Shown: in pieces, positions 14,707 through 31,653 of the stretch
How the letters are laid out: every line of letters starts with the position of its first letter
Numbering within the stretch: position 1 is the stretch's first letter
DNA from: an alpha proteobacterium BAL199
GTDB taxonomy: Bacteria > Pseudomonadota > Alphaproteobacteria > Thalassobaculales > Thalassobaculaceae
NCBI GenBank assembly: GCA_000171835.1
Contig: ABHC01000011.1
Span: forward strand, 124,001-188,000
Direction: 5' to 3'
DNA: 64,000 nt
Translations under genes and position numbers: made by a program
The notes under the pieces: generated by a model
Told to the model about the DNA's origin: nothing
The model's database searches: none
What the model saw: only the letters and a program-made list of their open reading frames with translations

Positions 14707-15115
14707 ATCGGCTCCACGTCTGTCGTCCAGACCGATCGAACACGATCCCCATCTGCTCCGCCCACGGCCGGGCGGCGACGTCGGCCAAGTCGTAGAGCGA
14801 GAGCGCCGACGGTACGCGCCTGATCACGAGGTATTCGAGAACCTCCGGCGAGAGATAGGCGAGCCGCATCATCCGGCTCACGAACCGGTCGGAGACCTTC
14901 TCGGCGGCGGCGATATCCAGGATGGTGGAAGCGGCACCGGTTTCCAGCTGCCGCCGCCAACTCCAGGCGCGGGCAATGGCGCGCAGTACATGCGGATCCT
15001 GTGCCCGGCCATCCCGCAGGCCGATATCGTCGGGCGGCAGGATCTTCGGCCGCCCGTTGCGCTTGCGGATCGTCAGCGGGATGACGACGCGGATTGTTCC
15101 CCTCGAGCCGCTCAT
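14696..15115 (-). CDS. Putative HTH protein of the recombinase cassette
   Basis: A 139-residue protein starting MSGSRGTIRVVIPLTIRKRNGRPKILPPDD. A central segment, ASTILDIAAAEKVSDRFVSRMMRLAYLSPEVLEYLV, looks like a helix-turn-helix of the ParB/KorB-like type (IAxxxxVSxxxVSRxxxLAxLxPxxxxxIL). The ATG overlaps the recombinase stop by 4 bp, so it is the last gene of a coupled cassette. A role as DNA-binding partner or regulator of the recombinase is inferred from context only. Confidence 0.65.
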   Translation of the reverse strand: MSGSRGTIRVVIPLTIRKRNGRPKILPPDDIGLRDGRAQDPHVLRAIARAWSWRRQLETGAASTILDIAAAEKVSDRFVSRMMRLAYLSPEVLEYLVIRRVPSALSLYDLADVAARPWAEQMGIVFDRSGRQTWSRSIP

Positions 15116-16449
15116 GCGGCGGTCTCCGTCTGGCGGGGCGCCATCATTTCCCGGACAACCGATCCCAACCCCTCATGGCGCAGATCGACGGCGATGCCGT
15201 CCTCGCCGACGATCACCCGCTCGACCAGAAGCTGGACGATGCGGGCCTGCTCCGCCGGATAGAGCGCTGCCCAGAGCTGATCGAACTCGCCGAGGGCCCT
15301 GACGACCGCCTTCTCGTCGACGGGTGGGCTGTCTTCCCGCATCAGCTTGATCGTCCGTGCCGCGATCTCGGGCGCGCGGATCATGCGGCGGATTTCACCG
15401 ACAACGGCGTCCTCGACCATGCCCGCCGGCAAGCGCAGCGGACCGGAGGCATCGCCGGTCGGACGGTTGCGGATCAGATCCATCGACGCGTAGTAGCGGT
15501 AGAGGCGCGTGCCCTTCTTCGTCGCCGTCGGCGTCATCGCCGTGCCTGTCTCGGTGAAGATGATCCCCTTCAGCAGAGCCGGCGTTTGGCGGCGCGTGTT
15601 CTTTGCCCGCAGGCGTGGGCTCTCCTGCAGGATTGTGTGAACCTTGTCCCATAGGGCCTGATAAATGATGGCCTCGTGCTCGCCGGGATAGGCCGTGCCC
15701 TTGTGGACGGCATCGCCCAGATAGACCCGGTTGTTGATGAGCTTGTAGAGGAAGCCTTTGTCGATCAGCTTGCATCGCTTGTTCAGCACGCCTTCGGCCG
15801 CCAGCGCTTTGGCCAGCGTCGTTGCGGAGCCGATGGCGACGAACCGCTCGAAGATCATCCTGACCGTTGCGGCATCAGCCTGGTTGATGACCAGCTTGCG
15901 ATCGCGCACGTCGTAGCCGAGCGGCACGTGGCCGCCCATCCACATGCCGCGCTTGCGGGACGCTGCGACCTTGTCGCGGATACGCTCGCCGATCACCTCG
16001 CGCTCGAACTGAGCGAAGGACAGCAGGATGTTTAGGGTCAGGCGGCCCATCGACGTCGTGGTGTTGAACGCCTGCGTCACCGACACGAAGGTCACCTGAT
16101 GGCGGTCGAAGATCTCGACCAGCTTGGCGAAGTCCATCAGGGAGCGCGACAGCCGGTCGATCTTGTAGACCACGATCACGTCGATCAGGCCGGCCTCGAC
16201 GTCCTGGATGAGGCGCTTCAGGCCGGGCCGCTCCAGCGTCCCGCCAGAGACGCCCCCGTCGTCGTAGCGCTCGCGGATGGCCGCCCATCCCTCCGCCTTC
16301 TGACTTGTCACATAAGCCCCGCAAGCCTCTCGCTGGGCGTCGAGGCTGTTGAACGCCATGTCGAGCCCTTCCTCGCTCGACTTGCGGGTGTAGATGGCGC
16401 AGCGCTGGCGGCGCGGCATGATTGCGATAGATTCCGAGGAGCGGCTCAT
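15112..16449 (-). CDS. Large serine recombinase
   Basis: A 445-residue site-specific recombinase. The resolvase catalytic domain begins RRQRCAIYTRKSSEEGLD, with the nucleophilic Ser in YTRKSS. It continues with SLDAQREAC, YDDGGVSGGTLERPGL, VVYKIDRLSRSLMDFAKLV and FNTTTSMGRLTLNILLSFAQFEREVIGERIRDK. A recombinase domain (GYDVRDRKLVINQADAATVRMIFERF) and a zinc-ribbon-like region follow. The ATG at 16449 overlaps the DUF2924 stop by 4 bp, and a longer frame upstream is a shadow of that gene. Such enzymes integrate or excise phages and islands; its attachment sites were not identified. The upstream gene is broken by IS256 copy 2, so expression may be altered. Confidence 0.92.
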   Translation of the reverse strand: MSRSSESIAIMPRRQRCAIYTRKSSEEGLDMAFNSLDAQREACGAYVTSQKAEGWAAIRERYDDGGVSGGTLERPGLKRLIQDVEAGLIDVIVVYKIDRLSRSLMDFAKLVEIFDRHQVTFVSVTQAFNTTTSMGRLTLNILLSFAQFEREVIGERIRDKVAASRKRGMWMGGHVPLGYDVRDRKLVINQADAATVRMIFERFVAIGSATTLAKALAAEGVLNKRCKLIDKGFLYKLINNRVYLGDAVHKGTAYPGEHEAIIYQALWDKVHTILQESPRLRAKNTRRQTPALLKGIIFTETGTAMTPTATKKGTRLYRYYASMDLIRNRPTGDASGPLRLPAGMVEDAVVGEIRRMIRAPEIAARTIKLMREDSPPVDEKAVVRALGEFDQLWAALYPAEQARIVQLLVERVIVGEDGIAVDLRHEGLGSVVREMMAPRQTETAA

Positions 16450-16921
16450 CGATCGTCCCTCCGGGCCTCGCGCAGGCCGAAGAAGCGGTAGCCGTTCCAC
16501 TGCGTCCCGGTGATCGCCCGCGCCGCCGCCGACAGCGATTTGAACTTTCGTCCCTGCCAGTCGAACCCGTCCTTCATTACGGTGACGGTGTGTTCGACAC
16601 CGTCCCATTCGCGGATGAGCCTCGTGCCGACGACCGGGTTACGGGGATCGGCGATGATCGCTTTGCGTCCGATCCTGCCCTCGATCTCGTCTGCCAGCAG
16701 GTCCAGTGTTCGCCGCGTCTCGCGCGTGAGACCGCCAAGGATCAGTTCCTGGATCCGGTAACCGATCCTCAGTTCGAGGTAGCTGCGGCTGTTGTTCGGG
16801 GCCGGCGCGCTGAAGAGGCTCGCCCACTTCGCTTTCAGTTCGGCCACGGACATCCGCTTCAGCTCCGCCAGTTCCGCGACCACGCTCGCGTCCGCCGCTG
16901 TGGCGGTTCGTCGCTCTGGCT
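16446..16921 (-). pseudogene. DUF2924 protein, 3' part, interrupted by IS256 copy 2
   Basis: The minus strand encodes VVAELAELKRMSVAELKAKW, then RSYLELRIGYRIQELILGGL, then a C-terminal segment GTRLIREWDGVEHTVTVMKDGFDWQGRKFKSLSAAARAITGTQWNGYRFFGL. This is the DUF2924 family, which recurs beside serine recombinases in Alphaproteobacteria. Removing the IS and one copy of the 8-bp duplication joins this part in frame to MPRTIKRSVAEPERR from 18390-18352, giving an intact 168-residue protein. Internal GTG codons could still allow a shortened product (from 16883, 145 residues). The function of the family is unknown. Confidence 0.85.
16914..16921. repeat. Target-site duplication, left copy (CTCTGGCT)
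   Basis: The 8-mer CTCTGGCT directly precedes the left end of IS256 copy 2 and recurs directly after its right end at 18352-18359. Eight or nine base pairs is the usual duplication for this family. Confidence 0.9.
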
Positions 16922-18351
16922 GGGTATGTCCCGGTCGATGTTGAAATAGGGGAGCAGGCGTTGCCCGCCTTGAGCCATTAGGCTCGGGGTGTCGAATCCG
17001 CGAAGGAGAGCAACGCCATGAAGAAAGCTACCAGATCTGCCGGCGTGGTGCCGGCGGCAATCGTCGATGAGGCTTGGCAGGAAGTCGGAGCCAGCTTCGA
17101 TCGTTTCTGCCTGACGGCGGGCCTGGCGACTTTGGCGACGATGATGGATGAGGAGGCGGCCGAGCTGTGCGGCCCGCGCTACGGCCGGGCTGCTGGGCGA
17201 GACGGGTATCGCTGGGGCAAGACCAAGGGGAAGGTCGGCTTCCACGGCGGCAAGGTCGAGATCGATCGTCCTCGCGTTCGTGCTCGCGACGGCGGCGAGC
17301 TGGCGCTGCCGAGCTGGGAGGCGGCGCAGTCGGAAGACCTGCTCGGCAAGTGGGCGCTGAACCTGATGCTGATCAACGTCTCGACCCGCAAGTTCGGCCG
17401 CGCCGTCCGCCTGCCGGGCGGCGACATCCCGGCGGCCCCCGGGTCGGGAGTGTCGAAGTCGGCGGTGTCGCGGCGGTTCGTGGCGCTGTCGGCGGAACGC
17501 ATGAAGGAATGGATGGCCGCCGACTTGTCCGCCCTGGACCTGCTGGCGATCCAGATCGACGGCATCCACATCGAGGAAGACCTGATGCTGCTGGCCGCCG
17601 TCGGCATCGACGGCATCGGCGACAAGCATCCGCTCGGCGTGATCGAGGGGGCCAGCGAGAACGCCGCCGTGGCCCAGGCGCTGCTCGACAACCTGGTCGG
17701 CCGCGGCCTCGATCCCGCGGTCTGCCGACTGTTCATCATCGACGGCGCCAAGGCGCTGTCGAAGGCGATTCGCAACACCTTCGGCCGCGACACCCCGATC
17801 CAGCGCTGCCAGGTCCACAAGGCCCGCAACATCGCAGAGCGCCTGCCCAAGTCCTTGCAGGCCGGCGTCCGCAAGGCGCTGCGTCAGGCCTGGGAACTGG
17901 ACGACGCCGACAAGGCCGAGAAGCTGATCCGCAACCTCGCCCGTCGCCTGGAGCGCGACGCCCCGGGCGTGTCGGCCAGCATCCTGGAGGGCCTCGACGA
18001 GATCCTCACCGTCACCCGCCTCGGTCTGCCAGTCGAACTACGCCGGTCGCTCGCCTGCACCAACATCATCGAGAACATGAACGGAACCGTCCGCCGGGTC
18101 TGCCGCAACGTCAAACGCTGGCAGGACGCGGCCATGGCGCTGCGCTGGACCGCCGCTGCCATGCTCGAGGCCGCCAAGGGTTTCCGCCGCCTCAAGGCCC
18201 ACAAGCAACTCCCGAGCCTGCGCCGAGCCCTGGCGGCCCACCAGGACAGGAACGCGATCAACCACGACCTTGAACAGCAGGCGGTCGCCGCATAGCATCG
18301 TCAACCAACAGCGCCTGCCGAGCAAATTTCAACACGGCGAGGGACATCCCC
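16922..18351 (+). mobile_element. IS256-family insertion sequence, copy 2 (1430 bp)
   Basis: Same length and ends as copy 1 (GGGTATGTCCC; GGGGATGTCCC read inward), flanked by a perfect 8-bp duplication CTCTGGCT. It therefore inserted here by simple transposition and has not recombined since. It sits about codon 11-13 of the DUF2924 gene, opposite to that gene's direction. Confidence 0.93.
17018..18295 (+). CDS. IS256-family transposase (copy 2)
   Basis: Identical over all 425 residues to the copy at 360-1637, with the same ribosome binding site. The catalytic Asp/Asp/Glu contexts (IQIDG, IIDGAKAL, NIIENMNG) are intact, so this copy should be active. Confidence 0.95.
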   Translation: MKKATRSAGVVPAAIVDEAWQEVGASFDRFCLTAGLATLATMMDEEAAELCGPRYGRAAGRDGYRWGKTKGKVGFHGGKVEIDRPRVRARDGGELALPSWEAAQSEDLLGKWALNLMLINVSTRKFGRAVRLPGGDIPAAPGSGVSKSAVSRRFVALSAERMKEWMAADLSALDLLAIQIDGIHIEEDLMLLAAVGIDGIGDKHPLGVIEGASENAAVAQALLDNLVGRGLDPAVCRLFIIDGAKALSKAIRNTFGRDTPIQRCQVHKARNIAERLPKSLQAGVRKALRQAWELDDADKAEKLIRNLARRLERDAPGVSASILEGLDEILTVTRLGLPVELRRSLACTNIIENMNGTVRRVCRNVKRWQDAAMALRWTAAAMLEAAKGFRRLKAHKQLPSLRRALAAHQDRNAINHDLEQQAVAA

Positions 18352-18760: not shown

Positions 18761-19834
18761 CTATGATATTGCTCTCGCGAAGGATGGCATCGACCCTCCT
18801 GACACGGTTGAGGCGAATCGTCTGCAATCCCCAACAAGCTTTCTTGTCTCGGCCTCGCTGAAACCAAGGGATTCATCTAGCTTGGCTATAAAACCATATT
18901 CCGACTCTCCCTCGAGCGGCCCATACCTTGATGATGCTTGGTATATTTTCACAGCCATCGTCTGCAAGATTTTCCTGAGATGGTTGTTCCCCGCCCCATC
19001 CATCGTCGAAAGGCACGCTCGTGCGATGGCCCACCTAGACATTACGATTAGAAAGAATAAATCATCTGGGATCAGGCTCTGCCGTCGGTCGAGATCCAGC
19101 TTGTCGATCAAAGGTCCAGTGCGACCGCCGACCCAGATCGTTTGCAGGATACGTCCCGCCCTGACTGCGAACGCGAGTTCTCGATCTGAGTTTGAATCAG
19201 GGGCGAACACCATTAGACGTACCGGCGCACCCTCAGTTCGATAGTGGTCCTTCGTACAGGCGAACACCATCAGGTTGAGGATAAATGCTGTCTGCGCGGC
19301 CAATCGGCTCGAGACGGTGCTCGACTCCGCAGAAAACTTCTCCAGCATTTGTTCGAAGCCGCTGATAGCCTTCTTTAGTTGTGATTTCCGCCGGTCGATC
19401 TGCGCCTGTGTAAAGATTCGTTGAATCGGCTCGTGCTGTGACGGCGGGGAATCAGCTGCAGGATATTGAGGATTCTCTTCGGTCAGCTCGTCTCCATCCT
19501 CTTTTTCGCCGGCGTGAAGATCTGCATCTTCCTCTTTGTCCTGGCGCCGGCGAGCTTCTCGTCCGCCGACATCCGTGACCCCGCGAAGGATTATCGTCAG
19601 AAGGTCTAGCAGGCCTGGATCCTCAATACTGAAGCGGCCGGACGCACCATTGGCCGGTTTCAGGGAAACAGCGTCACGAAACTCCTCGGAGGTCAGATAG
19701 TCTTTTCTCTCACGGCACTTTCCCCGAGCCGCACCTCGCTCACATCGCGCCGATCGCGCACCGGCACATAAACATGCAAGGGCGGATCCGGTTTGCGGTC
19801 GAGGAACACGCCCATCTCGCACGCCGGAGGGCAC
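18761..19834 (-). CDS. Hypothetical protein, possibly frameshifted near its start
   Basis: The convincing part runs from about 19710 down to 18761: KDYLTSEEFRDAVSLKPANG, a charged linker rich in Glu/Asp/Lys, then a mostly helical C-terminal region (IFTQAQIDRRKSQLKKAISGFEQML, FILNLMVFACTKDHYRTEGAPVRLMVF, RAGRILQTIWVGGRTGPLIDKLDLD). The first roughly 45 residues in this frame are Arg/Cys/Ala-rich and implausible. The neighbouring frame over 19705-19815 instead reads MGVFLDRKPDPPLHVYVPVRDRRDVSEVRLGESAVRE. A one-base slip at the AAAA run near 19710 would join the two. No family is recognised. It lies upstream of the recombinase cassette in the same direction. Confidence 0.5.
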   Translation of the reverse strand: MPSGVRDGRVPRPQTGSALACLCAGARSARCERGAARGKCRERKDYLTSEEFRDAVSLKPANGASGRFSIEDPGLLDLLTIILRGVTDVGGREARRRQDKEEDADLHAGEKEDGDELTEENPQYPAADSPPSQHEPIQRIFTQAQIDRRKSQLKKAISGFEQMLEKFSAESSTVSSRLAAQTAFILNLMVFACTKDHYRTEGAPVRLMVFAPDSNSDRELAFAVRAGRILQTIWVGGRTGPLIDKLDLDRRQSLIPDDLFFLIVMSRWAIARACLSTMDGAGNNHLRKILQTMAVKIYQASSRYGPLEGESEYGFIAKLDESLGFSEAETRKLVGDCRRFASTVSGGSMPSFARAIS

Positions 19835-19851
19835 GATAACAGGAAAGGGTG

Positions 19852-19866
19852 CTAAGCTATTGAAAT
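19852..19866. repeat. 15-bp direct repeat CTAAGCTATTGAAAT, first copy
   Basis: The same 15-mer recurs at 19895-19909, 43 bp downstream in the same orientation, just before the ISAs1 remnant. It could be a duplication left by an excised element or a short tandem binding site; no further copies were noticed. Confidence 0.6.
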
Positions 19867-19894
19867 ATCGCAGACCCTGATTCTGCCAGTCATT

Positions 19895-19909
19895 CTAAGC
19901 TATTGAAAT
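19895..19909. repeat. 15-bp direct repeat CTAAGCTATTGAAAT, second copy
   Basis: Second copy of the 15-mer at 19852-19866, lying at the boundary with the ISAs1-like transposase remnant. Confidence 0.6.
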
Positions 19910-19936
19910 CCCAGGCGATCCTTACCGGTACTTTCG

Positions 19937-20170
19937 GGGAAAGTGGTACGGAAACCCCTCGACGTCGTCTTTGGAGACGACCGGGCCCGCCTGCGAACCG
20001 GGCACGGAGCCAAGAACATGGCCGTCGTCAGACACTTCGCAATCAACCTCGTCCGTACCGCAACCGACAAGAAAAGCATCAGGCTCAGGCGAAAGATCGC
20101 CGGCTGGGACACCGGCTACCTCGCATCAATCCTTGGACTCAAAGCGCGTCAACCTGGATTCGGAGCCCTG
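19937..20170 (+). pseudogene. ISAs1-family transposase, C-terminal remnant (copy 1)
   Basis: The plus strand reads RKPLDVVFGDDRARLRTGHGAKNMAVVRHFAINLVR, then KKSIRLRRKIAGWDTGYLASILG. This matches the C-terminal part of ISAs1/H-repeat transposases (LDVVFxEDxxRxRxGxxAxNMxxxRHxALNLL, then a KxKRxxAGWDxxYL segment). The last 101 bp (20070-20170) recur inverted at 27818-27918 with two mismatches noted. Both copies end at the same point, CAGGGCTCCGAATCC read inward, which looks like the right terminal repeat of the element. The N-terminal two thirds are missing. Confidence 0.75.
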
Positions 20171-20195
20171 CCGGACACACGGCCCGCCGATGCGC

Positions 20196-23100
20196 TCAAT
20201 AGACGCCCCCGACATCGGCCGCCGGCTCTACCGCGGCCCCGCGCGTCCTGCTCAATTCCTCGATCCGGGCGCGCCCGACCAAGCTGAACAGCACCGGCGT
20301 CAGCACGGTGTCCATGACCATGGCGCTGGCGAGCCCGCCGAATATCGTCACCGCAACCGGATGCAGGACCTCCTTGCCCGGCGTCTCGGCCCCGATCAGC
20401 AGCGGGATCAGCGCCAGGCCGGTGGACAGCGTGGTCATCGCCACCGGTGCGACCCGCTCGTCGCAGCCCCGAAGGATCAGATGGCGCCCGAAGCTCTCGC
20501 CCTCGTGGAGTGCAAGGTTGAGGAAGTGGCTGACCTTCAGGATGCCGTTGCGGGCGCTGATGCCGGCCAGGGCGACGAATCCGACCATGCTGGCGAGCGA
20601 AAGCGGCTGGCCGGACAGCCAGACCGCGAAGACGCCTCCGATCAGCGCCAGCGGGATGTTCGCCATGATCACGAGGCTGAGGGCGGTCGACTGATAGCGG
20701 TTGTAGAGCAGCGTGAACACGATCAGGACCGCCGCGCCGAACAGCAGGGCGATGATCCGAGCCGCTTCCTCCTGCTGCTTGTAGGAGCCCTCGACCACGG
20801 CGAAGTAGCCGGTCGGCAGACCGGCGACCGCCAGCCGCTTCTCGATCTCGCCGACCACCGCGCCCATCTCGCTCGGCTCGGCGTTCGCCTGGATCAGGAT
20901 CCGGCGCCGGCCATTCTCGCGGTAGATGCTGTTGGGGCCGTCAGTATCCTCGACCACAGCGAAGTTGCCGAGCGGCACCTTGCCATTCGGGGTCTCGATC
21001 AGCAGATCGCGCAGGGTCACCGCACGACGCGCCGGGTCGGAGATCCGCAGCATCAGGTCGAAACGCCGCTGCCCCTCCAGGATCTGCGAGACTTCGCGGC
21101 CGCCGGACAGCACCTCCAGCGCATTGGTGACCGAGGCCGGCGTGACTCCCAGGTTGGCCGCCCACTCGTAGTCGACCACCACCTTGATCTGCGGGATCCG
21201 GACCTGCGCCTCGACCGACAGGTCGCGGATGCCCGGAATGCCGGCGAAGTTGGCGCGCAGGTCCTCGGCCTGCGACCGCAGCTTGTCGAGGTCGTCGCCG
21301 AACAGCTTGACGACGATGCTGGTCCGGCCACCGGTCAGCATGATCCCCATGCGGTGCGACATCGGCTGGTCGAGCATCAGCCGAACCGGCAGGACGGCGA
21401 GCCTACGGCGGATCAACTCGCGCAGCTCGCCGCGTGTGCGGTCGGTCTCGGCGAAGTCGACATAGATGTCGGAGAAGTTGACGCCCTCGACATGCTCGTC
21501 GAACTCGGCCCGCCCGGTGCGCCGCCCGACCAGCCTGACCTCCGGCATCTCGAGCAGCAGGTTCTCGGCCACCCGGGCGATCCGGCCCGCCTCGACCAGC
21601 GAGATGCCGGGCCGCGATTCGATCAGGACCACCATCGGGCCCTCGTTGAAGGGCGGCAGGAACACCCGCGGCAACGCCACCATCAGGGCGAGGGCCAGCA
21701 GGGCGACGCCGCCGATCCCGAACAGCACAGACCGGCCGTTGTCCAGCGCCCAGCCGACCACCCGACGGTTGAGCCGCTTGGCCATCGCCAGCACCCGGCC
21801 GTCGGCCTCCGCCGCCGGCCGCTCGGCCAGGCCGGGCAGCAGGTAGTAGCAGAGCACCGGCGTGATGGTGACCGCGGTCAGCATGCTGGCCAGGATCGAC
21901 AGGACGTAGGCGCCGCCGAGTGCGCTGAACAGGCGGCCTTCCAGCCCGGACAGGAAGAACAGCGGCACGACCGCCAGCACCACGATCAGGGTGGCGTAGA
22001 CGATCCCACTCCGGACCTCGACCGAGGCCCGCGCCACCACCTCGATGACCGGCAACGGGGCGGCGAGCCGACGGTTCTCCCGCAGCCGGCGGAACACGTT
22101 CTCGACGTCGACCACCGCGTCGTCGACGAGCGCGCCGATGGCGATCGCCATGCCGCCCAGGGTCATGGTGTTGGCCGACTGCCCCATGACCTTCAGGACC
22201 AGCAGCGTGACGAGCACCGAGATCGGGATCGCGATCACCGAGATCACGGTCGCCCGGACATTGCTCAGGAAGATGAACAAGATGACGGTGACGAACACCG
22301 CGGCCTCGACGATGGCGTCGGCGAGATTGTCGATCGAGGCCTCGATGAAGTCGGACTGCTTGTACAGCACCTCGCCGATCTCGATGCCCTCGGGCATGCT
22401 GCGCTGCAGTTCGCTGATCACGACCTCGATGTCGCGGACCAGCGACACGGTGTCGACCCAGGGCTGCTTCTTGACGGCCACAAGGATCGCCGGCTCCCCC
22501 ATGAAGCCGGCCTCGCCTCGCGGGAACTGCTGGCCGAAGTGGACCTCGGCAATCTGCCGCAGCAAGATCGGATGGCGGCCGCGCTGTCCGACCACCAGGT
22601 TGCGCAGGTCCTCCAGGCGGTTGGTGCGGCCGATGTTCCGGATCACGTATTCCTGGTTGCCCTGGTTGAGGAACCCGCCGCCGGAGTTCTCCGCGAAGTG
22701 GGTGAGCGAGGACTGCAGGTCGTTCAGCGAGATGTCGGCCTGCTTCATCAGGGTCACGTTCGGGGTGACCCGGTACTGACGGACCTTGCCGCCGATTGTC
22801 AGCACCTGGGTGACGCCGCTGACCGCCATCAGCCGCGGCCGGACCACCCAGTCGGCCAGCTCCCTGGCCGTCATCATGTCGGTGTCGACGCTGCGCACCG
22901 TGAACACCAGGATCTCGCCCATCACCGACTGGATCGGCCCCATGTGGACCTCGGTCCCGGGCGGCAGCTGCCGGCCGAGCCGGTCCATCCGCTCGGTCAC
23001 GGTCTGCCGGGCGCGGAACACGTCGGTGTTCCAGTCGAATTCCACATAGACGATCGCCAGGCCGGCGGTCGAGGCGCTGCGGACCCGGATCACCCCGGGC

Positions 23101-23327
23101 AGGCCGAGCATCGTCGACTCAATCGGGAACGAGACCAGGGCCTCGATCTCCTCGGGCGCCAGCCCCGGCGCCTCGGTCATCAGGGTCACGGTCGGGCGGT
23201 TGACGTCCGGCAGCGCGTCCACGCTCATGTCGCGGACCGTGACGACGCCGAACACCATCAGCGCGAAGGCGACGCCCGCGACGATCAGGCGGTTCTGCAG
23301 GCTCGCGAGAATGAGCGACTTGAACAT
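20196..23327 (-). CDS. RND efflux permease, heavy-metal (CzcA/CusA-like) type
   Basis: An inner-membrane proton-driven pump of 1043 residues. The N-terminus MFKSLILASLQNRLIVAG gives TM1 and is followed by SVDALPDVNRPTVTLMTEAPGLAPEEIEALVSFPIE, the CzcA-like porter entry. TM4 contains AIAIGALVDDAVVDVENVFRRLRENR, with acidic residues as in metal-exporting RNDs, although the VDDAVVDVEN spacing differs from classic CzcA and CusA. The second half repeats the fold and ends in a TM cluster. The ATG at 23327 follows the preceding gene's stop by 4 bp; an upstream extension is shadow. No TolC-like outer-membrane factor lies in the cluster. Metal specificity is not determinable here; the HupE neighbour hints at nickel or cobalt. 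Confidence 0.88.
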   Translation of the reverse strand: MFKSLILASLQNRLIVAGVAFALMVFGVVTVRDMSVDALPDVNRPTVTLMTEAPGLAPEEIEALVSFPIESTMLGLPGVIRVRSASTAGLAIVYVEFDWNTDVFRARQTVTERMDRLGRQLPPGTEVHMGPIQSVMGEILVFTVRSVDTDMMTARELADWVVRPRLMAVSGVTQVLTIGGKVRQYRVTPNVTLMKQADISLNDLQSSLTHFAENSGGGFLNQGNQEYVIRNIGRTNRLEDLRNLVVGQRGRHPILLRQIAEVHFGQQFPRGEAGFMGEPAILVAVKKQPWVDTVSLVRDIEVVISELQRSMPEGIEIGEVLYKQSDFIEASIDNLADAIVEAAVFVTVILFIFLSNVRATVISVIAIPISVLVTLLVLKVMGQSANTMTLGGMAIAIGALVDDAVVDVENVFRRLRENRRLAAPLPVIEVVARASVEVRSGIVYATLIVVLAVVPLFFLSGLEGRLFSALGGAYVLSILASMLTAVTITPVLCYYLLPGLAERPAAEADGRVLAMAKRLNRRVVGWALDNGRSVLFGIGGVALLALALMVALPRVFLPPFNEGPMVVLIESRPGISLVEAGRIARVAENLLLEMPEVRLVGRRTGRAEFDEHVEGVNFSDIYVDFAETDRTRGELRELIRRRLAVLPVRLMLDQPMSHRMGIMLTGGRTSIVVKLFGDDLDKLRSQAEDLRANFAGIPGIRDLSVEAQVRIPQIKVVVDYEWAANLGVTPASVTNALEVLSGGREVSQILEGQRRFDLMLRISDPARRAVTLRDLLIETPNGKVPLGNFAVVEDTDGPNSIYRENGRRRILIQANAEPSEMGAVVGEIEKRLAVAGLPTGYFAVVEGSYKQQEEAARIIALLFGAAVLIVFTLLYNRYQSTALSLVIMANIPLALIGGVFAVWLSGQPLSLASMVGFVALAGISARNGILKVSHFLNLALHEGESFGRHLILRGCDERVAPVAMTTLSTGLALIPLLIGAETPGKEVLHPVAVTIFGGLASAMVMDTVLTPVLFSLVGRARIEELSRTRGAAVEPAADVGGVY

Positions 23328-23331
23328 GCGG

Positions 23332-23985
23332 TCAGTCGCGCCGGCGGCTGCGGCGGAAGGATGCCGGCAGCGAGACGGTCGCCCAGCGCGACAGCGGTGC
23401 CGGCAGCGACCCGGCAAACAGCAGGCTGGACGCGATCAGGATCGCCCCGGCGACCAGCAGCGCGGTGACGACCCGGCCGGTGTCCCCGGTCAGGAGCGTC
23501 CATGGGTCGATGCCGGCGTCGCCGGCCGCCGCCTGGAGCTGCGCGGCCGCCGCGTCGTCGAGCTTGAAATCGACGATCAGCAGGTCGTCGACGTCGCCGG
23601 CGATCACCGAGAACATCAGGCTGCTGACCCCCGGCCCGGGCAGCCAGCCGGTCGTGGTGTAGATCCCGGGTGCCGCCTCCTCGAGGAGGTGCTGGCTGTC
23701 GGCGACGTCCAGCTCGATCGTCGCGCCGACCACCGGTCGGTTGGTGACGGCGTTATCCAGGAACGCCACCAGGCGGCCGCGGTCGACCAGCACCACCAGT
23801 TCGAAGGCCTCGGTCATGGTGACGGCGCGTGGCGCCACCTCGCGCGGCGGCTCGAGCGCCTCGAGCAGGTGGTGCGCGCCGCCCGCGGACGCGCCCTGGC
23901 CGGTCAGCAGAACCGCGCCGGACAGGACCGCAGCCGCAATCGCCGCGCGGATCCGGCCGAAATTCGGGAAGCTGGTACCAGCCAT
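23332..23985 (-). CDS. Hypothetical membrane-anchored periplasmic protein of the RND cluster
   Basis: 217 residues with an N-terminal signal-like segment (IRAAIAAAVLSGAVLLTGQGASA), a domain with VVLVDRGRLVAFLDNAVTNRPVVGATIELDVA and APGIYTTTGWLPGPGVSSLMFSV, and a C-terminal transmembrane helix (VVTALLVAGAILIASSLLFAG) with a basic tail. The first part resembles small beta-sandwich domains of the kind seen in FixH- or CopC-like accessory proteins, but no family is claimed. Its ATG abuts the adaptor stop and its stop is 4 bp from the RND start, so it is almost certainly part of the pump system. Confidence 0.72.
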   Translation of the reverse strand: MAGTSFPNFGRIRAAIAAAVLSGAVLLTGQGASAGGAHHLLEALEPPREVAPRAVTMTEAFELVVLVDRGRLVAFLDNAVTNRPVVGATIELDVADSQHLLEEAAPGIYTTTGWLPGPGVSSLMFSVIAGDVDDLLIVDFKLDDAAAAQLQAAAGDAGIDPWTLLTGDTGRVVTALLVAGAILIASSLLFAGSLPAPLSRWATVSLPASFRRSRRRD

Positions 23986-25605
23986 CTAACGCACCTGGTT
24001 GAGGACGTGGGCGCCCGCCGTCACGAGGCGTTCGGAACTGTCCAGCCCCGAGATCACCAGCACGGTATCGCCGTCCAGGGGCTCGGTGTTGACCTGCCGG
24101 GGCTCGAAGCGTTCGGGCGTGACATGGGCGAACACGATCTGCTGACCGCTCGAGCCGCGGACCACCGCGTCGCTCGGCACCACCAGGCCGGAGACCTGAC
24201 GCCCGGTCCGCAGATAGACGGTCACCGGCTGATCGACCACCAGCGTGTCGTCGCTGACCACGATTCTGAACTGCAGCGGGATCGCCTGCTGCTCGAGCCG
24301 CCGGCCCCGCCCGACGTAGGCAAGGCGGAACGACCGGCCGTCGGCGGTGACCGCATAGGCGTCCGTCACGCCGTCGATCTGCGCGCCGGAATAGGCCACC
24401 GCCTCGACCCACAGGTTGGCCGGGTCGACGATCTCCCACAGGACGTCGTTGGCCGATACCACCTCGCCGATCTCGCCCTCGGCGGACGAGACGATGCCGC
24501 TGGCCGACGCCCGCAGTTCCTCGACCCGATCCAGCGCGCTCAGCACCGCGTCACGTTGCTTGCGCAGCTTGTCGAGCTGCAGTCGCAGGCTGAGGATCCG
24601 GCCAGCGCGAAACGGGACGATCGGGAACTCGCGCAGCCGGAGCAGCGACAGCTCCGTCTTGGTGATCTCGCCCTCGAGCTCGGCCGCGGCGGCGTTGATG
24701 TCGGCGACCTTGGTCACCGGCAGGACCGGCCGCAATACCGCGAGCGTCTCGCCCTTGGTGACGCGCATGCCGATATACGGGAACACGTCGCCCGCCGCCT
24801 CGAGCCGGCCCGGCTGGCTGGCCTGCACGATGCCGGTACTGATCCGGTCGGCGGTCACCCGGCCGGACAGCCGCTCGCCGATCCGGGCTTCGCCGCTGCA
24901 CGGCAGGGCGGTGCGGATCATCATCAGGCGCTGCGTCGTCTTCGGCACGAAAAGCGTGCCGTCGGGCATCTGCCGGGGGCTGTCCGCGATGTTCTTCAAT
25001 TGCCCGACCATCTTCTTGACCTGGTCGAAATCCGCGTCGTCGACCTTGCCGTCGTCGAAGCCGCAAGCCGTCCGGTCCGGCGGAATGGCCGCCGCGTCCT
25101 TGAAGGTGATCGCCAGGTCGCCCTTCGGCACCGGCGGAGCCTTGGCCGGCCGCGGCACGACCGCCGCCTGCAGGCTGACCGGGCTGGCGCTCGACAGGTC
25201 CTGGCCGAACAGCGTCGGCAGCGGCGGCGTCACCGTCTGGCCGATGCGGCCGACCTGGATTTCGATCGCGCGATCCAGTTCCGGGCTGACCAGCGGAGCG
25301 TTCGGCTGGGAGCCGGATACGATCCCTAGCACCCGGGCGGCCAGGTCGCCCGACCAGGACACGGCCCCGTAGGTCGACACGCCGGCCGAGTAGAGGGTCG
25401 ACATCGTGGCGTTGTAGGCGTCGCCGAAACCGACATAGGTGTCGATCATGGCACGCGACATCGGGTCCTCGATGCGGTCGATCGGCGCGCCACCGGTCTG
25501 CTGCGCGGCCGCCGGCCCACCTAGCACAATCGACAGCAGGAGGAGCGGCGCGCCGATCTTGGTTTGCCAAGGCCAGCCACGCTGGTTACCTTCGGATCGG
25601 CGCAA
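23986..25605 (-). CDS. RND periplasmic adaptor (membrane fusion protein) with an unusual N-terminal region
   Basis: The C-terminal part has HlyD-family adaptor features: VFPYIGMRVTKGETLAVLRPVL (first lipoyl half), a coiled-coil hairpin around AAAELEGEITKTELSLLRL and LRLQLDKLRKQRDAVLSALDRVEELRA, then SGIVSSAEGEIGEVVSANDVLWEIVDPANLWVEA (second lipoyl half), and a beta-barrel ending VVPSDAVVRGSSGQQIVFAHV. The first roughly 230 residues have no adaptor features. The start is uncertain. A TTG at 25605 with GGGAGG upstream leads directly into a signal sequence (KIGAPLLLLSIVLGGPAAAQQ). An ATG at 25641 is possible but overlaps a divergent small gene. It links the pump at 20196 to an outer-membrane channel. 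Confidence 0.78.
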   Translation of the reverse strand: MRRSEGNQRGWPWQTKIGAPLLLLSIVLGGPAAAQQTGGAPIDRIEDPMSRAMIDTYVGFGDAYNATMSTLYSAGVSTYGAVSWSGDLAARVLGIVSGSQPNAPLVSPELDRAIEIQVGRIGQTVTPPLPTLFGQDLSSASPVSLQAAVVPRPAKAPPVPKGDLAITFKDAAAIPPDRTACGFDDGKVDDADFDQVKKMVGQLKNIADSPRQMPDGTLFVPKTTQRLMMIRTALPCSGEARIGERLSGRVTADRISTGIVQASQPGRLEAAGDVFPYIGMRVTKGETLAVLRPVLPVTKVADINAAAAELEGEITKTELSLLRLREFPIVPFRAGRILSLRLQLDKLRKQRDAVLSALDRVEELRASASGIVSSAEGEIGEVVSANDVLWEIVDPANLWVEAVAYSGAQIDGVTDAYAVTADGRSFRLAYVGRGRRLEQQAIPLQFRIVVSDDTLVVDQPVTVYLRTGRQVSGLVVPSDAVVRGSSGQQIVFAHVTPERFEPRQVNTEPLDGDTVLVISGLDSSERLVTAGAHVLNQVR

Positions 25606-25639
25606 CAGGGCCTTCCTCCCTACATCGCAGGAGCGCGAC

Positions 25640-25888
25640 ATGAACTGGTTACTGCTGACCGCCGTGTTCGCAGGCTTGATGGCCGGCGATGTCGCCGTGG
25701 AAGTGTTCGCGGAGACGTCGGCCTCGAGCTTCCTGCAAGCCTCCGACAACTGGTTCTGGTCGTTCCCGACCGACCCTACGTCATCCGACGCGGCGCTGGC
25801 CGCGGAGCGGACGTTGAACGAGGACGAGTATCTCCGGCAGCTGTGCTCGCCCACGGGGCCGCTCTCTGCTTCGGCGACGCTGCGGTAG
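25640..25888 (+). CDS. Small putative secreted protein, divergent from the adaptor gene
   Basis: An 82-residue frame: MNWLLLTAVFAGLMAGDVAVEVFAETSAS, then a Trp/Asp/Glu-containing region ending CSPTGPLSASATLR. The N-terminus looks like a signal or anchor helix, and CAGGAGCGCGAC supplies a ribosome binding site. The opposite-strand frame here is Ser-rich, as expected for a shadow. It lies head to head with the adaptor gene inside the metal cluster. No homologue is recognised, so it is a moderate-confidence call. Confidence 0.42.
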   Translation: MNWLLLTAVFAGLMAGDVAVEVFAETSASSFLQASDNWFWSFPTDPTSSDAALAAERTLNEDEYLRQLCSPTGPLSASATLR

Positions 25889-25966
25889 TCGACGCACTCG
25901 GTCACAGCCGCCGGAGCAGGGACCAGGCGTCCAGAACCTCCGGCGGATCGCGTCATATTCCCCGTC

Positions 25967-26419
25967 TCACTCGCCGATCGGCACGAAGCGGGCCTGCAGC
26001 GGACGCTGGTCCGGCACCTGCAGCCGGATCACAGCCTTCAGGCTGGCGTCGGGCGTCGCCGCACTCCGGCCACTCAGCGTCACCGCGTCGCCGGCTTCCA
26101 GCTTCACCGTCTCCTTGGCGCTGTTGATCAGCAGGATCGCCTCGGCGCCGATTCTGGCGACCGGCAGCGGATCGCCGTAATGGCCGGTGGCCAGCTTGAC
26201 CTCGGAGTCGTACAGCCGGACCGACAGCGTCGTCCCGTCGATCACCAGTTCGATGTGATAGGGGCCGGCATCGGCGATGGCGCCGCCATGCGGTCCCGGC
26301 TCATGGTCCGCGAGCCCCTTGAGGCGCGGTGCCTCGGCCAAGGCGACGCCCGCCGGAACCAGCAGGGCGAGACCCGCCAGGACCGGCAGCACCCACGGTC
26401 GAAGGGAGGACAAGATCAC
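25967..26419 (-). CDS. Periplasmic protein with HGG motif, RND/HupE cluster
   Basis: 150 residues from a GTG at 26419, which overlaps the hupE-like stop (GTGA). A signal peptide (LRPWVLPVLAGLALLVPAGVALAEA) is followed by DHEPGPHGGAIADAGPYHIELVIDGTTLSVRLYDSEVKLATGHYGD. The PHGG...HIELV...V(Y/R)L(Y)D pattern is found in periplasmic metal-binding segments that accompany, or are fused to, metal RND adaptors. The rest (AILLINSAKETVKLEAGDAVTLSGRS) is a small beta domain. Likely a periplasmic metal chaperone or adaptor accessory; this is inference from motif and context. Confidence 0.7.
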   Translation of the reverse strand: MILSSLRPWVLPVLAGLALLVPAGVALAEAPRLKGLADHEPGPHGGAIADAGPYHIELVIDGTTLSVRLYDSEVKLATGHYGDPLPVARIGAEAILLINSAKETVKLEAGDAVTLSGRSAATPDASLKAVIRLQVPDQRPLQARFVPIGE

Positions 26420-27570
26420 AGCAGCGTCCTCTCGACCAGCCAGTAGACGCCCAGCAGGCCGATGATGCCGGACAGGCCGTAGATCAGTATCGCGTTGCGC
26501 GGCATCGCCGCGGTGCCGTCGGCCGCGATCTGCGGCTCCGCCGGCCCGGCCGACATGGACCGCAGCCCCCGCTCGACCAGCAGCAGTGCCGGCAGGAAGA
26601 TCGCGATGATCGCCACCTGCCCGATCTCGACCCCGACGTTGAACGTCACCAGCGCCGTCGCCAGGGCGTCGCTCGGCAAGCCGAACTCCTTCAGCACGCC
26701 GGCGAACCCGAATCCGTGGATCAGCCCGATGAAGAAGGTGTACTTCCAGCGCCGCTCCATGTTCCGGGAGAAGAAGTTCTCGACCGCCACGAACACGATC
26801 GAGGCGGCGATCAGCGGTTCGATGATTTCGCCGGGAATGTCGACGACGTCCAACACCGCCAGCGACAGCGTGATCGAGTGCGCGATGGTGAACGAGGTCG
26901 CGACCTTGATCACCGGCCAGACCCGGCTGGCCCAGAGCAGCACGCCGATGATGAAGGCGATGTGATCGTAGCCGATGAAGATGTGCATGATACCGGAGTA
27001 GGTGTACTGCATCACCACGTCGAACAGGCGCGGCGGCGGCCCGGTTACGCTCACCTCGGTCTTGTCGGCCGTCAATTGCACCTGGCCCGCGTCCACGTCG
27101 TCTCCGAGTACGACGATCTGCCGGGCCGTCGGCTCGATCGCCGTCAGGATGTCGGAGCGGTAGACGATCTCGCCAGGGATCGCCGAGCAGTCCCAACTGA
27201 CCAGCGTGGTGACATGGTCGGCCTCGGCGATCATCCGGTCGACGGTCATCGGGCAGGCCTGCCCGTCGACACCCAGCAGGAGCGCATGCTCCTTGAAGTA
27301 GGCGCGGATCGTGGCCTCGGACGCGGCGAGCGCGTCGGACTTCGCCAGATCGGAGGCCTTGTCGTGGATGGCGGTGCCGGCGACGCGGTCGACGTCGCTG
27401 CCCTTCAGGCGGATCTCGGCACTGAACTGCCGGTCCTCGCCGATGCTGAACAGCGTGGACACGAGATTGACTTCATGGGCCTGGACCGGCGTCGGACCGA
27501 TCAGAAGGACGGCGAGCAAGCCGATCGCGCCAAGCCCGCGCATCGTCAGCCATGATTTCCGCAAAACCAT
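26416..27570 (-). CDS. HupE/UreJ-family membrane protein
   Basis: 384 residues: a signal-like N-terminus (GLGAIGLLAVLLIGPTPVQAHE), a roughly 170-residue periplasmic domain, then a six- to seven-helix membrane domain with YSGIMHIFIGYDHIAFIIGVLLW, SFTIAHSITLSLAVL and FFIGLIHGFGFAGVLKEFG. The GxxHIxxGxDHxxF and FTxxHSxTL motifs are diagnostic of the HupE/UreJ_2 family, whose members include nickel/cobalt permeases. The periplasmic extension is typical of the UreJ_2 subtype. It is the first gene of the transport cluster and overlaps the next gene by 4 bp. It could import or deliver the metal handled by the pump; direction is unknown. Confidence 0.82.
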   Translation of the reverse strand: MVLRKSWLTMRGLGAIGLLAVLLIGPTPVQAHEVNLVSTLFSIGEDRQFSAEIRLKGSDVDRVAGTAIHDKASDLAKSDALAASEATIRAYFKEHALLLGVDGQACPMTVDRMIAEADHVTTLVSWDCSAIPGEIVYRSDILTAIEPTARQIVVLGDDVDAGQVQLTADKTEVSVTGPPPRLFDVVMQYTYSGIMHIFIGYDHIAFIIGVLLWASRVWPVIKVATSFTIAHSITLSLAVLDVVDIPGEIIEPLIAASIVFVAVENFFSRNMERRWKYTFFIGLIHGFGFAGVLKEFGLPSDALATALVTFNVGVEIGQVAIIAIFLPALLLVERGLRSMSAGPAEPQIAADGTAAMPRNAILIYGLSGIIGLLGVYWLVERTLL

Positions 27571-27817
27571 CGTTCATACCCCCCCATGTCCGGGCGCACC
27601 GACGCATCCGCACAATTCATGATCGGCCGTCAAGCCCGATAAGCCGTCGAGATCATAGATCACCTGCTCCAGCGGTGTACCATCAGCATTCGCTGGATCG
27701 GCGGCGAATTGATCACGCGATTACCTAACCATGTCAAACCGTCGAAGTTGCCAGTAGCGGGCACGCTTGTCTCGCGCATGCAGCATGCCACATTGGCGAT
27801 CCACGGCCCCCGTCGCC
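27571..27817. other. Upstream region of the transport cluster
   Basis: No gene is seen. This stretch must hold the promoter for the hupE-adaptor-RND genes. No clear hexamer pair or metal-regulator operator was recognised. It ends where the inverted ISAs1 terminus begins. Confidence 0.4.
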
Positions 27818-27918
27818 CAGGGCTCCGAATCCAGGTTGACGCGCTTTGAGGCCAAGGATTGATGCGAGGTAGCCGGTGTCCCAGCCGGCAATCTTTCGCC
27901 TGAGCCTGATGCTTTTCT
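27818..27918 (-). pseudogene. ISAs1-family transposase 3' end remnant (copy 2, inverted)
   Basis: 101 bp reading on the minus strand KSIRLRRKIAGWDTGYLASILGLKARQPGFGAL. It is nearly identical to 20070-20170 in opposite orientation. It ends outward at CAGGGCTCCGAATCC, the presumed right terminal repeat, and is cut on its other side by IS1380 copy B. With copy 1 it brackets the 7.6-kb transport cluster. Confidence 0.75.
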
Positions 27919-29589
27919 CCGACATTCCCCAAGCGGCGTGCCGACTGACGTGAAGATCGCCTGAATCCGACCTCTGGACAATCGTTTTTTGCCCCAAGCG
28001 GCGTCAGGGGTCGCGCAGGCTGCTGTAACAGGGCGGATCAGACCGGGAAGCCGCTGTGTCCTGGCCCAGGGGCGGTGTTTTTCAGCGCAGTGGATAGACC
28101 TGTCCTGCCGCTTTCGTTCAGTTTGGGTCCGGATCGCGGTCATGCGCATAGCGGTGGCGCTCGCAATCGGCGGATAGCGGCGAGGATGGCGCGCACCATC
28201 GGGCCGGTGACGGCCACCTCGGCCAACTGGAAGGTAATGGCGCGGGCGTGGCGCACGACGCGTGCCCCGATCTTGATCAGCTTGAGCTGCAGGCTGGTTA
28301 GCGACCAGTCGGCCATCGCCTCGGGTAGCTCGATGCAGCGCAGGAAGGTGGCCAGGTTGTAGGCCAGTGCGTGCAACTGCAGCCGCACCTCGTTGTCGCG
28401 GAACTTCCGGCATGACAGCCGCGTCCAGTGAAAGGCATGCTTGCCTTCCTTGATATGCTGCTCGGCGGTGCCGCGGCGATTGTAAAAGCGGGTGATCTCG
28501 TCCGGCTCCATCGGCAGGTTGGTGACGATGAAGCCGACCTTGGGGAACAGTTCGCCCGGATGCCATTCGATCTTGGCGATCACGCGGCGTGGCTTGTCCC
28601 AACTCTGAGCCTGATACTGGAAGTCCTCGTAGAACCGCTTCACCTTGGTCTTTGACGGCCGCCCAACGGGGCGGGTTAACCGATGAGCGATGCAGCCTTC
28701 GAGAACGGCGTTCTTCTTCATCCGGATGGCGTAGAAATAGCCTGCCCCTTCCAGTCGCTCATAGAGTGCCGGGATCGCATAGGCGGCATCGGCCCGGAAG
28801 AAGCGGCCACCAAGGTTGCGACCAGCGTAGCGGGTGATCACCGGATCAAGGACGTTCCGCCAGCCGTCGGCGCTGTGGACGTTGCCATTGCGCAGGGCGC
28901 AGCGTTCCAGCATGCCGAACTGGTTGAACAAGAAGTTGGGATGATAGCAGTTGCAGTCGAAATGCCCGTTCCACGCCGCTCCTTCCTGATCGCCATGCGT
29001 CGGGCTGACCGAGCTGTCCATGTCCAGCACGATATACTTGAGCCCGTTGCGGTCATGAAACCGGTCAATCCATCGGCCATTCAGGTCGGCCAGCGCCGCC
29101 CGGTTCTCAGGCAAGGCCAGTGTCTCGGTCTCGAACCGCCCCATCTGCGATGCTGAAGCTGCTTGCGCATCGACGGCCCTGCCGCCGACAACCTGACGCA
29201 TCACCGGGTCGAGCGCGAGACGGTCAGCATCGTTCACATCCCCATATCCGGCCAGCCGCCCGAACACCGATTGCCGGAACAGCCCGTCAAGACGATGGAC
29301 CGTGTTCCTTCCGATACGATTGTCGCGCAGCGAAGCTGATGCCAGATTGGACAGCCCAAGCGCATCGTCAAGCTCGCGCATCACCAGCAGGCCGCCGTCC
29401 GAACTGATCTGCGTGCCACGAAATTCCAGCCGCACGCGAGGGTCGAAATCCACCCGATCTGCCCGCTGTAATCCCGCACCCTCTGGGTGATCCATGAAAT
29501 ACGCCCCTCGCAGCCATCAACACCATGATTTGTATAGGTAATGTTGAGTTCAAGACAGCGAAATCAGCCGGCTACTCGGGGAATGCGGG
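27919..29589 (-). mobile_element. IS1380-family insertion sequence, copy B (1671 bp)
   Basis: Same ends and length as copies A and C. At 27963 it has G where the other two copies read C on the corresponding strand. Flanks are TTCT on the left and TTAG on the right, which do not match. The right flank TTAG is, however, the complement of the outer flank of copy C (CTAA), which shows that B and C have exchanged flanks by inversion. Confidence 0.93.
28140..29495 (-). CDS. IS1380-family transposase (copy B)
   Basis: 451 residues, identical to copies A and C, with the intact YIVLDMDSSVS and RGTAEQHIKEGKHA motifs. It reads away from the inverted segment, toward the transport cluster's upstream region. 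Confidence 0.94.
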   Translation of the reverse strand: MDHPEGAGLQRADRVDFDPRVRLEFRGTQISSDGGLLVMRELDDALGLSNLASASLRDNRIGRNTVHRLDGLFRQSVFGRLAGYGDVNDADRLALDPVMRQVVGGRAVDAQAASASQMGRFETETLALPENRAALADLNGRWIDRFHDRNGLKYIVLDMDSSVSPTHGDQEGAAWNGHFDCNCYHPNFLFNQFGMLERCALRNGNVHSADGWRNVLDPVITRYAGRNLGGRFFRADAAYAIPALYERLEGAGYFYAIRMKKNAVLEGCIAHRLTRPVGRPSKTKVKRFYEDFQYQAQSWDKPRRVIAKIEWHPGELFPKVGFIVTNLPMEPDEITRFYNRRGTAEQHIKEGKHAFHWTRLSCRKFRDNEVRLQLHALAYNLATFLRCIELPEAMADWSLTSLQLKLIKIGARVVRHARAITFQLAEVAVTGPMVRAILAAIRRLRAPPLCA

Positions 29590-29643
29590 TTAGAAGATGG
29601 TGCTGTTGGCCAGATTTGAGGCCAGCAAGCACATAGTAAGCGC

Positions 29644-29982
29644 ATGATGGAATTTGGCGACCTGATTCGGCCCGGTGTTGGCGCTGTCGTTGGCTTCTTG
29701 CTGGCGCAACTCGTCAATGTTGCGGTTCTTGTATGGAGGCGGCGACAGCGGCCCCGCTTGGTAATCGAACTCCCGGATGAGCGTAGCAAAGTCCTTGCCC
29801 ACAGCACCGAGGCACGCCAAGGCGAAATTCTACGGGAGGAGATCTACGGATTCTACGTCCGCAATGTTGGGCGTCGGCTCGCGACAGGCGTTCGATTTCA
29901 GCTCATTAAGATCGAGCATCGGCGGTCCGAGAGGCATTTGTTCAGCGAAATTTCGGACCACGCTTTCGAACTAACCTTGTAT
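29644..29982 (+). pseudogene. Membrane-anchored hypothetical protein, C-terminus removed by IS1380 copy C
   Basis: The plus frame reads MMEFGDLIRPGVGAVVGFLLAQLVNVAVLVWRRRQRPRLVIE, a single N-terminal transmembrane helix with a basic stop-transfer. A soluble part with EEIYGFYVRNVGRRLATGVRFQLIKIEHRRSERHLF follows. The frame continues 6 codons into the IS end and stops there, so the natural C-terminus is missing. The domain looks like the small beta-rich extracytoplasmic or cytosolic domains seen in orphan membrane proteins; no function can be given. The whole 393-bp segment between copies B and C appears inverted relative to its original orientation. Confidence 0.6.
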
Positions 29983-31653
29983 CCCGCATTCCCCGAGTAG
30001 CCGGCTGATTTCGCTGTCTTGAACTCAACATTACCTATACAAATCATGGTGTTGATGGCTGCGAGGGGCGTATTTCATGGATCACCCAGAGGGTGCGGGA
30101 TTACAGCGGGCAGATCGGGTGGATTTCGACCCTCGCGTGCGGCTGGAATTTCGTGGCACGCAGATCAGTTCGGACGGCGGCCTGCTGGTGATGCGCGAGC
30201 TTGACGATGCGCTTGGGCTGTCCAATCTGGCATCAGCTTCGCTGCGCGACAATCGTATCGGAAGGAACACGGTCCATCGTCTTGACGGGCTGTTCCGGCA
30301 ATCGGTGTTCGGGCGGCTGGCCGGATATGGGGATGTGAACGATGCTGACCGTCTCGCGCTCGACCCGGTGATGCGTCAGGTTGTCGGCGGCAGGGCCGTC
30401 GATGCGCAAGCAGCTTCAGCATCGCAGATGGGGCGGTTCGAGACCGAGACACTGGCCTTGCCTGAGAACCGGGCGGCGCTGGCCGACCTGAATGGCCGAT
30501 GGATTGACCGGTTTCATGACCGCAACGGGCTCAAGTATATCGTGCTGGACATGGACAGCTCGGTCAGCCCGACGCATGGCGATCAGGAAGGAGCGGCGTG
30601 GAACGGGCATTTCGACTGCAACTGCTATCATCCCAACTTCTTGTTCAACCAGTTCGGCATGCTGGAACGCTGCGCCCTGCGCAATGGCAACGTCCACAGC
30701 GCCGACGGCTGGCGGAACGTCCTTGATCCGGTGATCACCCGCTACGCTGGTCGCAACCTTGGTGGCCGCTTCTTCCGGGCCGATGCCGCCTATGCGATCC
30801 CGGCACTCTATGAGCGACTGGAAGGGGCAGGCTATTTCTACGCCATCCGGATGAAGAAGAACGCCGTTCTCGAAGGCTGCATCGCTCATCGGTTAACCCG
30901 CCCCGTTGGGCGGCCGTCAAAGACCAAGGTGAAGCGGTTCTACGAGGACTTCCAGTATCAGGCTCAGAGTTGGGACAAGCCACGCCGCGTGATCGCCAAG
31001 ATCGAATGGCATCCGGGCGAACTGTTCCCCAAGGTCGGCTTCATCGTCACCAACCTGCCGATGGAGCCGGACGAGATCACCCGCTTTTACAATCGCCGCG
31101 GCACCGCCGAGCAGCATATCAAGGAAGGCAAGCATGCCTTTCACTGGACGCGGCTGTCATGCCGGAAGTTCCGCGACAACGAGGTGCGGCTGCAGTTGCA
31201 CGCACTGGCCTACAACCTGGCCACCTTCCTGCGCTGCATCGAGCTACCCGAGGCGATGGCCGACTGGTCGCTAACCAGCCTGCAGCTCAAGCTGATCAAG
31301 ATCGGGGCACGCGTCGTGCGCCACGCCCGCGCCATTACCTTCCAGTTGGCCGAGGTGGCCGTCACCGGCCCGATGGTGCGCGCCATCCTCGCCGCTATCC
31401 GCCGATTGCGAGCGCCACCGCTATGCGCATGACCGCGATCCGGACCCAAACTGAACGAAAGCGGCAGGACAGGTCTATCCACTGCGCTGAAAAACACCGC
31501 CCCTGGGCCAGGACACAGCGGCTTCCCGGTCTGATCCGCCCTGTTACAGCAGCCTGCGCGACCCCTGACGCCGCTTGGGGCAAAAAACGATTGTCCAGAG
31601 GTCGGATTGAGGCGATCTTCACGTCAGTCGGCACGCCGCTTGGGGAATGTCGG
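29983..31653 (+). mobile_element. IS1380-family insertion sequence, copy C (1671 bp)
   Basis: Inverted relative to copy B, 393 bp away. Left end CCCGCATTCCCC at 29983; right end GGGGAATGTCGG at 31653. Flanks are GTAT and CTAA. Flipping the segment between B and C would place CTAA on both sides of C, the expected 4-bp duplication. Confidence 0.93.
30077..31432 (+). CDS. IS1380-family transposase (copy C)
   Basis: 451 residues, identical to copies A and B. It reads toward the pentapeptide-repeat fragment and the core chromosome, so readthrough could reach the gene at 32053. Confidence 0.94.
   Translation: MDHPEGAGLQRADRVDFDPRVRLEFRGTQISSDGGLLVMRELDDALGLSNLASASLRDNRIGRNTVHRLDGLFRQSVFGRLAGYGDVNDADRLALDPVMRQVVGGRAVDAQAASASQMGRFETETLALPENRAALADLNGRWIDRFHDRNGLKYIVLDMDSSVSPTHGDQEGAAWNGHFDCNCYHPNFLFNQFGMLERCALRNGNVHSADGWRNVLDPVITRYAGRNLGGRFFRADAAYAIPALYERLEGAGYFYAIRMKKNAVLEGCIAHRLTRPVGRPSKTKVKRFYEDFQYQAQSWDKPRRVIAKIEWHPGELFPKVGFIVTNLPMEPDEITRFYNRRGTAEQHIKEGKHAFHWTRLSCRKFRDNEVRLQLHALAYNLATFLRCIELPEAMADWSLTSLQLKLIKIGARVVRHARAITFQLAEVAVTGPMVRAILAAIRRLRAPPLCA

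Follow-up and report, generated by a model that had tools for sequence, protein, structure and literature searches.

A probable rearranged copy of a NieBA-type heavy-metal RND efflux system between ISAs1 remnants in alpha proteobacterium BAL199, and two protein families conserved with its pump

The window analysed here is a stretch of 64,000 nucleotides from contig ABHC01000011.1 of alpha proteobacterium BAL199. Between two ISAs1 ends, it contains five intact open reading frames on the minus strand, which code for a HupE-type permease, the HGG protein, a periplasmic adaptor, the membrane protein MEM and an RND pump (Table 1). All five show a coding-type GC distribution by codon position. The adaptor gene directly abuts the MEM gene (TAG followed by ATG), 4 nt separate MEM from the pump gene, and hupE shares 4 nt (GTGA) with the HGG gene, which makes co-translation of HupE with a pump helper probable. 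No gene for a TolC-like protein was present in the cluster, as the initial annotation had stated, and neither a TolC nor a regulator gene was found nearby.

Table 1. Genes and insertion sequence remnants of the cluster (positions in the window).
Feature	Position	Strand	Remarks
Left ISAs1 remnant	19958..20170	+	transposase 3' end and right terminal repeat; ~75 bp missing internally
RND pump	20196..23327	-	1043 aa; NieA-like HME type; TM4 motif AIGALVDDAVVDVEN; site residues H612, N617, H658, I662
MEM (membrane protein)	23332..23985	-	217 aa; predicted N-terminal helix, Ig-like beta sandwich and C-terminal TM; family position corresponds to 'cep'
Periplasmic adaptor, HlyD/CzcB type	23986..25605	-	likely TTG start 25605; upper limit ATG 25956
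82-aa exported-type protein	25640..25888	+	opposite strand to cluster; two relatives upstream of adaptor in L036
HGG protein	25967..26419	-	150 aa; signal-type N-terminus and predicted Ig-like beta sandwich; overlaps hupE stop (GTGA)
HupE/UreJ_2-type permease	26416..27570	-	384 aa
Right ISAs1 remnant	27818..27918	-	final 101 bp with terminal repeat; truncated at 27918 by IS1380
IS1380 element truncating right ISAs1 remnant	27919..29596	-

The start of the adaptor gene bears on how the cluster is transcribed. The first 350 bases of the longest possible adaptor frame (start at 25956) show a non-coding GC distribution by codon position, and we rejected an N-terminal extension over positions 25606-25956 because GC at codon position 2 exceeds that at position 1 and because a conserved opposite-strand gene lies in the same stretch. 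The 82-aa product of this gene has a signal-like start and belongs to a family without a Pfam model. Two relatives are located in tandem upstream of the adaptor in a genome of the same family (L036), one with 42% identity (E 7e-8) and the second weakly similar, and the BAL199 genome holds one further relative elsewhere. The suggested TTG start of the adaptor is only 35 bp away from the start of the 82-aa gene, which is awkward for this layout. Because the conserved opposite-strand gene splits the cluster, the single five-gene transcription unit assumed initially is doubtful. The gene order points most likely to two tight groups, hupE-HGG and adaptor-MEM-pump, with the small opposite gene between them, and thus probably not to a single operon.

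The cluster is enclosed by inverted arms of 101 nt (20070-20170 and 27818-27918) with 98% identity at a distance of 7647 nt. Both match the 3' end of ISAs1-family elements from Azospirillum (72-82%) and stop exactly at the terminal repeat of the element, GGATTCGGAGCCCTG, which bears out the near-identical inverted ISAs1 ends recognised before. In both, the same element end is preserved and its terminal repeat points towards the cluster, an arrangement like that of a composite transposon minus its outer ends. Immediately left of the ISAs1 remnant, positions 19723-19962 resemble (73% DNA similarity) the 3'-terminal part of a Tn3-family transposase region on a Thalassobaculum plasmid. The window contains three identical IS1380 copies (8177-9847, 27919-29596 and 29976-31653), two of which are inverted and 379 bp apart at the right edge of the island, and an identical pair of IS256-type transposase genes (360-1637 and 17018-18295) at a distance of 16.7 kb. 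At 10489-16608, a gene for a CcrB-like serine recombinase adjoins one for an SNF2-type helicase, which may represent an integrative element. Activity of ISAs1, IS1380 and IS256 elements has probably put the segment together and later frozen it.

The pump matched the ACR_tran model (2e-234) and TIGR00914 (1.2e-202; 675 bits, slightly below the cut-off of 701 bits), and its best sequence match in the PDB was CusA (2e-126). Judged by its sequence, it is a full-length HME-RND protein of the CusA/CzcA type, in agreement with the metal-type pump originally annotated. Homologous pumps carry the motif EHAEGVH (84 of 103), commonly H-R-[LI]-D-H, and a histidine at alignment column 662 (95 of 103), in agreement with the motifs published for NieA (HAEGVH and HRxDH); by these motifs the window pump, which keeps half of their histidines, is similar to heavy-metal RND proteins of the NieA type. 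At these sites the window pump reads EHVEGVN and SHRMGI, and two of the four motif histidines are gone. The exchange of His617 for Asn is shared with 10 other pumps of the set (n = 103), whereas Ile in place of His662, next to G661, was seen only here among the 103 pumps. Column 662 aligns with Met672 of CusA, a metal ligand, and column 618 with Met623; a position of the metal site has therefore changed in the window pump. The residues aligned to Met573, Met623 and Met672, the metal-binding triad of CusA, are Leu, Phe618 and Ile662, so the triad is not conserved.

To place the cluster among its relatives, the pump alignment was scanned against 84,980 species, and the 80 nearest loci, the best among the matches listed, were compared. 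They belong to Alpha-, Beta- and Gammaproteobacteria, with one labelled Geobacteraceae; because they were chosen by pump similarity, the counts derived from them do not represent a random sample. Profiles for HGG, MEM and the adaptor were trained without the window sequences and recognised the HGG (4e-28) and MEM (2e-45) of the window. Among the listed matches, MEM and the adaptor precede the pump in 73 of the 76 loci with enough upstream DNA, and in those loci as well as in the window the MEM family is located next to the adaptor or fused to it. HGG follows behind the pump in 74/77 loci with enough flanking DNA, and TolC is present in at least 26 of 67. Because such large fractions of the nearest loci carry them, we regard HGG and MEM as core parts of a widespread RND system. 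An interpretation of HGG as a split-off N-terminal domain of CzcB type was dropped; it forms its own family behind the pump.

The BAL199 genome contains a second copy of the system, in which an adaptor with 42% identity forms part of an operon adaptor-MEM-pump-HGG-bestrophin-like protein. Several genomes of the same family also carry the quartet in the order adaptor-MEM-pump-HGG; a gene for a bestrophin-like membrane protein is located behind HGG in two same-family clusters (L026, 4065-4856; L041, 14454-15245). Plasmids of Polaromonas, Thauera, Pseudomonas and Cupriavidus have the genes arranged as TolC-MEM-adaptor-pump-small protein, and Defluviicoccus, Peteryoungia and Methylobacterium show a fusion of MEM to the adaptor N-terminus. 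Azospirillum sp. SYSU D00513 (L109) has a pump of this clade without an adjacent adaptor, and a MEM and an adaptor are found kilobases away. Copper-linked genes, coding for DUF305 proteins, a multicopper oxidase and copper-binding proteins, are found beside relatives of the cluster. The window itself has a second metal-handling gene at 57277-58230, coding for a fused DUF1775-PCu(A)C copper chaperone.

Neither the HGG nor the MEM family gave a convincing match to a Pfam model, and searches of PDB sequences with both profiles found no relative. By hhalign, the two families resemble each other weakly (89%, E 2e-6). AlphaFold modelled both proteins as Ig-like beta sandwiches (pLDDT 82.5 for HGG and 79.7 for MEM), with additional helices at both ends of MEM. 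The best structural match of either model was CrdA of Helicobacter pylori (HGG: VIA Z 10.3, 2.8 Å, 94 residues; MEM: VIA Z 11.9, 2.2 Å, 90 residues), followed by the periplasmic metal-binding proteins FetP, P19, FtrA and Tp34 (Z 8-10 for FetP, P19 and FtrA). Because Foldseek alone gave weaker matches for both models (best E 0.004-0.05), we read the similarity to CrdA as a resemblance in fold and not as proof of function. In many of the family members the signal peptide is followed by His-rich stretches, and the His cluster of the window MEM is weak. The two previously unassigned partners, annotated as periplasmic or membrane proteins, are thus predicted to be secreted or membrane-anchored beta sandwiches, and their retention in more than 70 loci supports their assignment to the pump. 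As judged from these comparisons, HGG and MEM appear to be standing partners of this pump clade, which is new as far as the literature shows; no experimental study of any member of this RND system was found in the literature.

The position of HupE has to be judged separately. Its product contains the HupE_UreJ_2 domain (PF13795, 7.1e-46, above the cut-off), in line with its initial annotation as a HupE/UreJ-type permease. In the initial annotation, it formed with the pump one proposed set of five genes for metal homeostasis, HupE acting as importer or sensor of Ni/Co and the pump as its exporter. The probable co-translation of HupE with a pump helper from the 4-nt overlap argues for such a unit, as does Sphingobium ba1, whose Ni-induced RND cluster includes a hupE-type gene (PMC5557971). 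However, HupE was found in none of ~100 homologous pump clusters among the matches listed, either with the window protein or with a 19-sequence HupE profile; its best full-length relatives in the genomes searched (42-51% identity) are not located near a pump, and the opposite-strand gene separates the two halves of the cluster. The homologous clusters compared thus consistently lack hupE, one of the two absences named beforehand as speaking against the unit, but retain the HGG gene in more than 70 loci. A search of plasmids gave 496 HupE records, none covering 80% of the query, no paper joining HupE UreJ with CzcA was found in the literature, and the gene arrangement of the window occurred nowhere else in the loci searched. 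We consider a true five-gene unit unlikely; as far as gene neighbourhoods tell, HupE is a local addition beside the pump system and no standing part of it. It also appears improbable that HupE, co-translated with the HGG metal carrier and combined with the altered-site pump (Asn617, Ile662), marks a new NieBA-type branch coupling metal uptake or sensing to the efflux of a different substrate.

Because two motif histidines are lost and the His cluster of MEM is weak, the pump may have changed its substrate or be failing, and the exchanges to Asn617 and Ile662 may accordingly reflect either altered specificity or decay. A decaying remnant, stranded by IS activity and losing its metal site and function, would agree with the residues I662, G661 and N617 at conserved site columns, with the truncated elements of the IS-rich island and with the presence of a second, family-typical copy in the genome. 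Against this stand the intactness and coding-type GC of all five reading frames and the tight gene junctions, and we consider loss of function quite unlikely. A composite transposon made of two ISAs1 copies and still able to carry the metal cluster along would account for the same IS end lying inverted on either side, but only 213 and 101 bp remain, both of them inner ends; the outer terminal repeats and the transposase are absent, and the left remnant has no copies in the whole genome beyond the two flanking the cluster. This reading is extremely improbable, and the claim of a working mobile unit is unsupported because all that is left of ISAs1 is decayed ends lacking the outer termini.

The pump, adaptor, MEM and HGG are, in our judgement, probably a rearranged copy of a widespread NieBA-type heavy-metal RND efflux system, in which HGG and MEM bind and hand over the metal, with HupE as a local neighbour. 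The four components are conserved together, and the helpers among them are predicted to be secreted or membrane-anchored; the transfer of metal, its direction and the metal itself are what we infer. The cluster would probably serve periplasmic metal efflux: soluble HGG, and MEM anchored at the adaptor or pump, would bind periplasmic metal and pass it on to the adaptor and pump, which would use the proton gradient to let the metal leave through a TolC encoded elsewhere. HupE, translationally coupled to HGG, may carry Ni/Co, or some other metal, through the inner membrane. Candidate metals are Ni, favoured because of the NieA motif and the presence of HupE, or Cu, favoured because copper-linked genes adjoin the relatives and the predicted folds are CrdA-like.

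We regard the cluster as a local form of an already known pump type and not as a new mobile system. The wider result outweighs the locus itself, namely an RND system across Alpha-, Beta- and Gammaproteobacteria with two conserved periplasmic proteins outside any Pfam family. With their predicted CrdA-like fold, these are candidate carriers of the metal for a class of pumps with a so far only guessed substrate, and the window copy with its altered site offers a natural variant for finding the residues that set the metal.

The CrdAB-CzcBA system of H. pylori confers copper resistance and likewise combines a small periplasmic CrdA-type protein, which the HGG and MEM models resemble in fold, with an adaptor and an HME-RND pump. 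In contrast, the cluster in the window has two proteins with a predicted CrdA-like fold and no crdB gene, and no sequence similarity of HGG or MEM to CrdA was detected. CusCFBA of E. coli also includes an HME-RND pump, an adaptor and a periplasmic helper, whereas the window lacks the Met triad of CusA (HME4, Cu/Ag) and genes for CusF-like or CusC proteins. The description of the cluster as a previously unreported unit is not supported, since the HME-RND kind, the nieBA-type operon and a hupE gene near an RND cluster are already known. The Ni-induced cluster of Sphingobium sp. ba1 contains hupE, RND and nreB genes (PMC5557971); it shares with the window a hupE-type gene near an RND metal pump, but its pump is CnrCBA/NccCBA-like and has a TolC, and no HGG or MEM is reported. 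The operon of TolC, exported protein, adaptor and pump is represented by nieIC-cep-nieBA of Cupriavidus neocaledonicus STM 6070, in which an additional exported-protein gene (cep) accompanies the adaptor and for which a nickel efflux class has been proposed, with the NieA motifs HAEGVH and HR[LI]DH defining 'HME class 6' (PMC7060636). This putative Ni efflux system resembles the window in the exported-protein gene beside the adaptor, the adaptor itself and the HAEGVH/HRxDH-type pump, and MEM would correspond to cep by its position. Unlike it, the cluster in the window has no TolC, its MEM gene separates the adaptor from the pump, HGG is located upstream with hupE, and the equivalents of the NieA histidines at 617 and 662 are replaced.
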